Assembly: GCF_019203965.1 (NCBI RefSeq)
Contig: NZ_CP076448.1
Location: 2,433,001-2,497,000, forward strand
Source: Elioraea tepida
Lineage (GTDB): Bacteria > Pseudomonadota > Alphaproteobacteria > Acetobacterales > Acetobacteraceae
DNA: 64,000 nucleotides
Reading direction: 5' to 3'
Positions within the stretch are counted from its first letter, which is position 1. Each line of letters starts with the position of its first letter. Below, in pieces: positions 3,348 through 37,712 of the stretch. A program made the position numbers and the translations under genes. The notes under the pieces are model-generated. The model was not told the DNA's origin, searched no databases, and saw only the letters and a list, made by a program, of their open reading frames with translations.

Positions 3348-3515
3348 TCGTCCTCGCCCTTTTCGTTCTCGCCCGTCCTTTTCAGCCGGTGCACGCCGGC
3401 GCGATGCTCCGACCGTAGGTAGTTCCGCCGTGGCCTGTCCAGACGGAAGAAGCGTAAACGCAGACACTTAGCGGCGATTGTTGCAGGCAGGCCACGCTCC
3501 GCGCAGGACTCGGCC

Positions 3516-3532
3516 GTTGTGCAGTGCAACAA
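3516..3532. promoter_or_regulatory. PhaR-type operator, upstream box
   Basis: GTTGTGCAGTGCAACAA contains the core TGC-N3-GCA (3520-3528) typical of binding sites for PhaR, the repressor that releases phasin and PHA genes when polyhydroxyalkanoate is present. It lies just upstream of a TTGACC -35-like hexamer. Assignment rests on motif resemblance and on the phasin gene following. Confidence 0.6.
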
Positions 3533-3537
3533 AGCGC

Positions 3538-3566
3538 TTGACCCGGAGCATCATGCACGCCATTTT
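3538..3566 (+). promoter_or_regulatory. putative phasin promoter
   Basis: TTGACC (3538-3543) and CATTTT (3561-3566) are 17 nt apart and lie about 90 nt before the phasin start. The -10 match is weak. The placement between two PhaR-type boxes supports it. Confidence 0.4.
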
Positions 3567-3573
3567 CCGATCG

Positions 3574-3588
3574 TGCTGCAGCGCAGCA
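3574..3588. promoter_or_regulatory. PhaR-type operator, downstream box
   Basis: TGCTGCAGCGCAGCA is a perfect TGCTGC-N3-GCAGCA dyad and contains CTGC-N3-GCAG, the reported core of PhaR sites in Rhodobacter and Paracoccus. It covers the predicted transcription start of the phasin gene, a good position for repression. Confidence 0.7.
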
Positions 3589-3657
3589 AAACGCGCTGCC
3601 ATATGACCCCGATCGTAGGACCGCGGCGACCCCGCGCGTGAAAAGGAAGAGATAACC

Positions 3658-4173
3658 ATGAGCAGCAGGACGAAAGCCGCCCCCGCGATGGACGCCGGTG
3701 TCGAGGCAGTGGACACCCTCGTGAAGCAGGGTGCGGAGATCGCGGAGAAGGGCTTCGAGCAGGCCCATAGCATCCTGAAGCAGAACATGGACGAGGCGCA
3801 GAAGCATGCGGCCGTCGCACAGCGCACGCTCGAGGAGGCGATCGCCTTCGGCCGCGGCAATCTCGAGGCGTTCGTGAAGTCCTCGACGATCCTCACCGAG
3901 GGCATGCAGGAGCTCGCGCGTGCGACGCTCGCCTTCGGCCAGGCCGCCTTCGCCGACGGGATCGAGAACGCCAAGGCGCTGGCCGCCGTGAAGTCGGTGC
4001 GCGAGGCGCTAGACCTCCAGGCTGCGTTCGCCAAGGCCTCGACGGAGAAGATGGTCGCGGAGACGACGAAGCTTACCGAGACCTCTGCGAAGCTCGCCGA
4101 GAAGGTGATGGCGCCGATGATCGAGCGCATGAACCAGGCGGTAAAGACCTTCGGCAAGCCGATCGCCGCCTGA
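3658..4173 (+). CDS. phasin family protein
   Basis: A 171-residue alanine/lysine/glutamate-rich, almost wholly helical protein without signal peptide or membrane segment. It matches the phasin_2 family of polyhydroxyalkanoate granule-associated proteins: conserved stretch KQNMDEAQK near residue 41, amphipathic helices, and a C-terminal segment ending in TFGKP. Phasins coat PHA granules and limit their size. AAGGAAGAG precedes the ATG at 3658. No PHA synthase gene is in the window, so this is a monocistronic phasin. Probable control by PhaR through the two flanking boxes. After the stop come several hairpins before clpS. Confidence 0.9.
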   Translation: MSSRTKAAPAMDAGVEAVDTLVKQGAEIAEKGFEQAHSILKQNMDEAQKHAAVAQRTLEEAIAFGRGNLEAFVKSSTILTEGMQELARATLAFGQAAFADGIENAKALAAVKSVREALDLQAAFAKASTEKMVAETTKLTETSAKLAEKVMAPMIERMNQAVKTFGKPIAA

Positions 4174-4183
4174 GGGGAGCAAT

Positions 4184-4206
4184 TCCGGGCGCGTGCTTCG
4201 CCCGGA
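4184..4206 (+). terminator. stem-loop after phasin gene
   Basis: TCCGGGCG and CGCCCGGA form an 8-bp stem with a 7-nt loop 10 nt after the phasin stop. There is no uridine tract, so it may be an mRNA-stabilising hairpin rather than a strong terminator. Confidence 0.5.
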
Positions 4207-4243
4207 GGCAGCGCTGCCGAATTTCCCGGCAGACCTTCTGTTG

Positions 4244-4271
4244 TGGCCCGGGTGGCTTGCCGCCCGGGCCA
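4244..4271 (+). terminator. second stem-loop between phasin and clpS
   Basis: TGGCCCGGG and CCCGGGCCA form a 9-bp perfect stem with a 10-nt loop, followed by the short T-containing run TTCTCATGT. Candidate intrinsic terminator isolating clpS from the phasin gene. Confidence 0.5.
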
Positions 4272-4473
4272 TTCTCATGTCGCCCGCATCCGGTTCGCCC
4301 GGAGTTTACGGTGTCTCCACCGTCACGCGCGACGCTCGCCGGCATGGAGGCCGCGGCACACCCTTTCAACGCTCGGCCCCGATCCGATATCATCAGCAAG
4401 CTCCGGCAGGGCGCACGCCGCGCCGGATGGGTGGGTGCATCGCGACAGCGGAGTGTTGATACGGCACGCAGCC

Positions 4474-4809
4474 ATGAGCGACACGGAGAGGCGGGGCAAC
4501 CAGGGTGGCGACGCGCCGGGCACCGGCGTGGTGATCAAGACTCGGCCGAAAACGCGCAAGCCCTCGATGTACAAGGTGCTGATGCTGAACGACGACTACA
4601 CGCCAATGGAGTTCGTCGTGCACGTTCTCGAGCGCTTCTTCAACAAGAGCCGGGAGGAGGCGACCCGGATCATGCTGCATGTGCACCGGCGCGGGGTCGG
4701 GGTGTGCGGCGTGTTCACCTACGAGGTCGCCGAGACCAAGGTGACGCAGGTGATGGACCTGGCGCGCCAGCACCAGCACCCGTTGCAGTGCACAATCGAG
4801 AAGGAGTGA
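4474..4809 (+). CDS. clpS: ATP-dependent Clp protease adaptor ClpS
   Basis: A 111-residue ClpS adaptor, which binds ClpA and delivers N-degron substrates to ClpAP. A short disordered N-terminal tail (about residues 1-28) precedes the conserved core. The core shows [13 protein letters not shown] (N-degron pocket region) and [23 protein letters not shown] with the usual ClpA-contact residues. The start at 4474 gives the standard length; upstream in-frame starts would add unrelated residues. It lies 128 nt before clpA in the same direction, the usual alphaproteobacterial order. Confidence 0.97.
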
Positions 4810-37598: not shown

Positions 37599-37712
37599 GC
37601 CGCCACTCTGCGCGAGGCCCCGGCCCTCCGCCAAGCGGAGCGCGAGGCCCTTGCACCATCGTCACCGAAGCATCACCATGGTGCATCGCAACACGACGGA
37701 AGCGCCAGAGTG

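Follow-up and report, generated by a model that had tools for sequence, protein, structure and literature searches.

The 64-kb window analysed here, positions 2433001-2497000 of contig C1 in the 3,367,643-base genome of Elioraea tepida (Acetobacteraceae), encodes a phasin, PhaP, and two PhaR-type boxes flank the predicted promoter of its gene. These boxes very probably serve as PhaR operators, through which phaP is repressed until polyhydroxyalkanoate (PHA) relieves the repression. The two sites, a phaR gene in the same genome, conservation of the box pair among relatives and a link between such sites and the presence of PhaR were all directly observed, while binding, repression and the PHA response, as proposed in the original prediction, are what we infer from the positions of the boxes and from homologous systems. 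The elements of the locus, numbered within the window, are as follows.

3517-3531, + strand: distal PhaR box TTGTGCAGTGCAACA, with the core TGCAGTGCA at 3520-3528; recognised by sequence and conservation, PhaR binding predicted
3538-3543, + strand: putative -35-like element TTGACC
3561-3566, + strand: putative -10-like element CATTTT, placed by its spacing (17-nt spacer)
3574-3588, + strand: proximal PhaR box TGCTGCAGCGCAGCA, with the core TGCAGCGCA at 3577-3585; at the predicted transcription start
3658-4173, + strand: phasin gene phaP, 171 aa, Phasin_2

The predicted phasin promoter and its PhaR-type boxes

The phaP product matches both PF09361 (84 bits, cut-off 24.9) and TIGR01841 (44.6 bits, cut-off 30.2). 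The original prediction had placed one box just upstream of the -35-like element and a perfect TGCTGC-N3-GCAGCA dyad at the predicted start, and the sequences, places and 57-nt centre-to-centre spacing it gave all proved correct. The distal box lies 6 nt before TTGACC, while the proximal box adjoins the transcription start, which is expected near position 3573, and is separated from the ATG at 3658 by 69 nt. A scan of positions 3400-4300 with the sigma-70 consensus called no promoter, and the assignment is suggested by the spacing of the elements and by their conservation in relatives.

Both boxes match the PhaR consensus of Bradyrhizobium, TGCRNYGCASMA, in at least one orientation, the distal box on the minus strand of the consensus. 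This consensus was built on footprinted PhaR sites (PMC6201568). The E. tepida genome encodes a single PhaR (TIGR01848, 157 bits, cut-off 109.45) with both PHB_acc domains (PF07879, 107 bits; PF05233, 67 bits), such that the regulator on which the original prediction depended is present.

Conservation of the box pair in the Acetobacteraceae

Conservation was assessed in a family sample of 60 genomes, with 30 listed loci each for the boxes upstream of phasin, mmgR and phaR, and in 80 named loci of phasin relatives, two of which were dropped for too short an upstream sequence, leaving 78 usable loci. Because of the overlap between the two sets and the relatedness of their members, they do not represent independent trials. 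In the family sample the strict core TGCRNYGCA was counted within 300 bp upstream and 300 bp downstream, and in shuffled sequences. A phasin match is found in 39 of the 60 genomes, and the core occurs upstream of the phasin in 29/30 loci and downstream in 0/30 (shuffles: mean 1.6, largest 7), with two or more cores upstream in 26/30.

Pairs were recounted in the named loci over 450 bp upstream, allowing spacings of 53-61, with a downstream stretch as control. All 78 usable loci contain such a pair (spacing 54-60, mean 56.8), while it is found in none of the 77 control stretches. The two best named relatives of the E. tepida phasin, at 72 and 75% identity, are themselves from Elioraea. A strict core fills the distal position in 78/78 loci and is followed by a TTGA/TTGC/TTGG or TGGAC element in 77/78. 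The proximal position is more varied: 49 pairs consist of two strict cores, while 29 combine a strict distal with a relaxed proximal core. Sixteen of the latter derive from Acidocella or Acidiphilium records and the rest from metagenome-assembled genomes without a genus name. These 29 loci share a derived proximal box, most often TGCTGCACTGCGGTA, which differs from TGYTGCRNYGCAGCA by at most two mismatches in 28 loci and by four in one, compared with six to nine at a control offset. In Acidocella-type loci (L239, L240, L241, L243, L273 and others) several proximal boxes run into a short inverted repeat, for example CGGTATTTACCG, and a second element may overlap the proximal box in this group.

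In the region downstream of the phasin the core occurs in 10 of the 78 named loci, nine of which share one sequence context; these nine appear to be coding look-alikes rather than operators, the equivalent position in the window (4784) being clpS coding sequence. The look-alike in the window, CGTTGCAGTGCACAA at 4781-4795, lies inside the clpS coding sequence (HPLQCTIE) and can mislead motif scans.

Occurrence of the motif and its link with PhaR

A working 15-mer, TKBTGCRNYGCAVMA, was derived by taking the arms from the family phasin and mmgR promoters; motif counts refer to the whole genome unless stated otherwise. It occurs at eight places, compared with none for the control: two at phaP, two at an MmgR-type small RNA (sRNA), one each at a PhaJ-like hydratase and an acyl-CoA ligase-like gene, and two elsewhere. 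The four matches at phaP and mmgR are not independent, since the arms were learned from those promoters, while the remaining four lie outside the motif-defining promoters. The perfect dyad TGCTGCN3GCAGCA is found at three places, and at 46 when up to one mismatch is allowed, against 14 for the reversed control. The original prediction had offered the perfect dyad as a motif for the whole genome; the extended form is indeed rare, but the perfect dyad is too strict and is better replaced by TKB-TGCRNYGCA-VMA. Nor is the motif common and unrelated to PHA genes, with five of the eight sites located at phaP, mmgR and the PhaJ-like gene. The short Rhodobacter form CTGCN3GCAG was rejected as a genome-wide marker (127 matches against 162 for the reversed control) and is useless for scanning this GC-rich genome. 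Only the extended box is usable for scans, given that the bare core is frequent and CTGCN3GCAG is not enriched.

Across the family sample, the number of sites tracks the presence of PhaR. A PhaR match was found in 45 of the 60 genomes (44 above cut-off), and these contain 686 15-mer sites against 50 for the control, a mean of 15 per genome; these counts include the motif-defining promoters, which would explain just part of that mean (two pairs, or four sites). The 15 PhaR-negative genomes contain 60 sites against 28, a difference that falls to 36 against 28 in 13 genomes once two of 82 and 87% completeness are set aside; neither comparison is corrected for common ancestry of the PhaR-negative genomes. 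One PhaR-negative genome, G009, has an sRNA match and no phasin match, and contains neither a box before the sRNA nor a 15-mer anywhere in its genome.

The MmgR-type sRNA

Two matches to the sRNA family RF00519 are found in the E. tepida genome.

C1:2691101-2691172 (L047 1578-1649), + strand: MmgR/suhB-type sRNA, 64.2 bits (gathering score 41)
C1:3267366-3267448 (L232 1067-1149), + strand: second RF00519 match, 46.4 bits

The promoter of the first contains two PhaR-type boxes 47 nt apart, the proximal one of which, TTGTGCACCGCAGCA, is identical, letter for letter, to part of the Sinorhizobium mmgR site listed in Table 3 of PMC12542648, a site reported there to be efficiently bound by PhaR in gel shifts. 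An RF00519 match occurs in 48 of the 60 family genomes (47 above cut-off), comprising all 45 PhaR-positive genomes and three of the 15 negative ones, two of these three being just 82 and 87% complete. The strict core lies within 300 bp upstream of mmgR in 25/30 loci, twice or more in 16/30 (shuffles: mean 2.1, largest 7). A relaxed pair 40-60 nt apart is present in 20/30 loci, 18 of them with a spacing of 47-48, approximately one helical turn less than that of the phasin pair.

No box was seen by eye directly before the second RF00519 match; a near-perfect box, CGCTGCACTGCAGCA, is located ~38 nt after it, before or inside another open reading frame (ORF). Pairing of MmgR with the phasin leaders was unsupported by crude duplex energies, which ranked 43 and 73 among 94 background leaders. 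The leader of the class I phaC gene (L072 ~1160-1180) contains GAGGAAAC, complementary by eye to GUUUCCUC in the MmgR-like sRNA; the former may be an ordinary ribosome-binding site.

Other candidate targets

Similar boxes probably place the MmgR-type sRNA, the PhaJ-like hydratase, the ligase-like gene, a second phasin and phaR itself under the control of PhaR. The gene coding for the PhaJ-like MaoC hydratase has a 15-mer box separated from its ATG by 37 nt, while the box of the acyl-CoA ligase-like ORF lies 11 nt before the ATG used. The two genes lie apart in the E. tepida genome, each with a perfect dyad. In G021 (L222) a homologue of the PhaJ-like gene likewise carries a 5'-terminal box. 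In G023 (L331, C82:8900-10500) MaoC and Succ_CoA_lig genes run in opposite directions from an interval with a single box, which lies at the Succ_CoA_lig start.

The second phasin gene has an imperfect box, TGCCGCACTGCACAA, 6 nt before its TTGACC, a gap equal to that at phaP, and another imperfect box, GCATGCAGTGCAACA, lies 24 nt before the likely ATG of phaR. Both genes are likely to be further PhaR targets. The original prediction had also proposed a scan before phaR, which located a box in this genome and in one of the same genus; such a box did not prove general. The gene beside phaR shows weak similarity to class III synthases (TIGR01836, 124 bits, cut-off 365) and is followed by an ORF read by eye as thiolase-like.

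Twenty regions at 15-mer places in the relatives G053 and G023 were surveyed; the sites at phaP and mmgR were set aside, as were three more in G023. Genes were chosen by a rough, partly unreliable coding score, and the Pfam scan covered 32 ORFs, drawn from 19 of the 20 regions, with no match for 11 of these ORFs. The clearly PHA-like genes among them are an Esterase_PHB ORF in G053 (L317), starting 87 nt after the first base of its box, and the MaoC and Succ_CoA_lig pair of L331.

Comparison with known PhaR systems

The arrangement at phaP resembles that of Ralstonia eutropha phaP1, where PhaR sites next to the -35 element and at the start were footprinted, with repression (PMC12849132). The two share the box positions and the core TGCRNYGCA, contained in the Ralstonia motif YTKNTGCRNYGCANMAR; they differ in that a third predicted site is reported within the Ralstonia ORF (PMC12849132), whereas no strict core is found inside the phaP ORF of E. 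tepida. In Bradyrhizobium diazoefficiens, where PhaR sites are described at phaP1 and phaP4, phaP1 also has two of them (PMC6201568). The upstream one is 6 bp before the -35 element as here, while the second is 6 bp downstream of the -35 element, inside the promoter, rather than at the predicted start and 57 nt away. The same study reported binding of PhaR to the phaR and polyhydroxybutyrate (PHB) depolymerase promoters and a strong rise of phasin genes when PhaR is missing, and found that PHB abolished DNA binding by PhaR (PMC6201568). PhaR of Sinorhizobium meliloti (AniA) recognises a similar core, YGCRNYGCR, has paired sites at both phasin genes and binds mmgR, and phasins rise in its absence (PMC12542648). 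The phasin pairs there are, however, located at -65/-47 and -75/-47 and one mmgR site is listed (PMC12542648); the pairs are thus 18 and 28 apart, compared with 57 here, and mmgR has two sites in E. tepida.

Repression relieved by polymer is the best reading of the phaP boxes because sites beside the -35 element and over the start occupy repressor positions, the like arrangement at Ralstonia phaP1 goes with repression and PHB abolishes the binding of Bradyrhizobium PhaR. Without polymer, PhaR would occupy the distal box, which adjoins the -35 element, as well as the proximal box in the start region, and would block access of RNA polymerase to the phaP promoter. As PHA granules form, PhaR would be titrated onto the polymer, opening the phaP promoter, and the phasin would coat the granules, after which PhaR would return to the DNA. 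The titration and return steps are reported for homologous systems, and would apply to E. tepida by analogy.

Alternative explanations

Several observations weigh against PHA-relieved repression or narrow its reach. The genomes compared are related rather than independent, and they supplied part of the 15-mer definition. Two of the eight 15-mer sites occur at genes without an evident PHA link: one, TGGTGCATCGCAACA at window positions 37679-37693, lies in the gap from which an Asp/Glu racemase gene and a DUF983 gene diverge and is a possible extra PhaR site, while the other, at C1:2788326, precedes a gyrA-like gene. The genome-wide 15-mer scan gave no site at the class I phaC (C1:114739), and most of the scanned box neighbours in G053 and G023 are not evident PHA genes, which fits either broad PhaR regulons, as reported in rhizobia, or chance sites. 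The core is also found within 300 bp downstream of the mmgR sRNA in 8/30 loci, above the largest upstream shuffle (7). A box before phaR is unsupported as a family trait, with 4/30 loci falling within the shuffle range (mean 1.5, largest 5), and Ralstonia PhaR was reported to have barely bound its own phaR promoter (PMC3570403). Finally, the window contains 15 copies of the bare core, compared with ~5 expected from base composition. Together with the lack of enrichment of CTGCN3GCAG, this last count could suggest chance dyads in GC-rich DNA, an explanation of next to negligible probability in view of the conservation of pair, position and spacing in 78/78 relatives against 0/77 controls, and of the eight extended sites against none.

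PhaR can also activate, as shown by Ralstonia eutropha phaP3, where two of the three sites are upstream of the promoter (PMC12849132), and the distal box at E. tepida phaP may be placed where contact with the polymerase alpha subunit is possible. It is nonetheless highly unlikely that PhaR binds here as an activator, or represses at one box and activates at the other: Ralstonia phaP1, with the like arrangement, is repressed, phasins are reported to rise without PhaR in Bradyrhizobium and Sinorhizobium (PMC12849132, PMC6201568, PMC12542648), and the box in the start region, a repressor position, is kept in 78/78 relatives. The sequence does not by itself name the binding protein, and another regulator recognising a TGC-N3-GCA dyad might use the boxes. 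The fit of both to a consensus from footprinted PhaR sites (PMC6201568), the near disappearance of the site excess in the 13 genomes without phaR and the sRNA promoter of PhaR-negative G009, which lacks a box, make this extremely unlikely. The proximal dyad, which the predicted start adjoins, could instead fold into a hairpin in the transcript, where it would begin the phasin mRNA and act for example on stability. The common variant TGCTGCACTGCGGTA retains pairing by eye through G-U, and among 39 distinct proximal boxes most arm changes at the position pairs 2/14 and 4/12 do likewise. We consider such a hairpin very improbable as an alternative to an operator, in that a like core lies upstream of the -35 element, where it would be untranscribed, the leader folds no better than shuffles (z -0.61; 52/200 shuffles as good), and the arms of the same 39 boxes show no two-sided changes to another Watson-Crick pair.

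Implications for PHA storage in the Acetobacteraceae

The regulator, its consensus and the operator architecture are already known, and the phaP locus of E. tepida is one more instance of an established switch. Features that may be new are the constant geometry across the family, the derived form of the proximal box in the Acidocella group, and the addition of mmgR, the hydratase and the ligase as targets in the Acetobacteraceae. Of the four papers listed by a full-text search combining phasin, PhaR and Acetobacteraceae, none has a title naming PhaR or phasin. The analysis provides a conserved and specific definition of a PhaR operator for this family and connects phasin-type boxes with an MmgR-type sRNA in a non-rhizobial group, while the genomes without phaR, with few such sites, represent a natural control. 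It is tentatively proposed, as a possibility that still falls short of being probable, that PhaR in the Acetobacteraceae commands a conserved storage circuit, with a pair of boxes ~57 nt apart at the phasin, a pair 47-48 nt apart (approximately one helical turn shorter) at mmgR, and single boxes at the PhaJ-like hydratase and the acyl-CoA ligase-like gene, which in G023 are divergent genes separated by one box. In such a circuit, the polymer would release the phasin, its sRNA brake and the monomer-supplying enzymes together.
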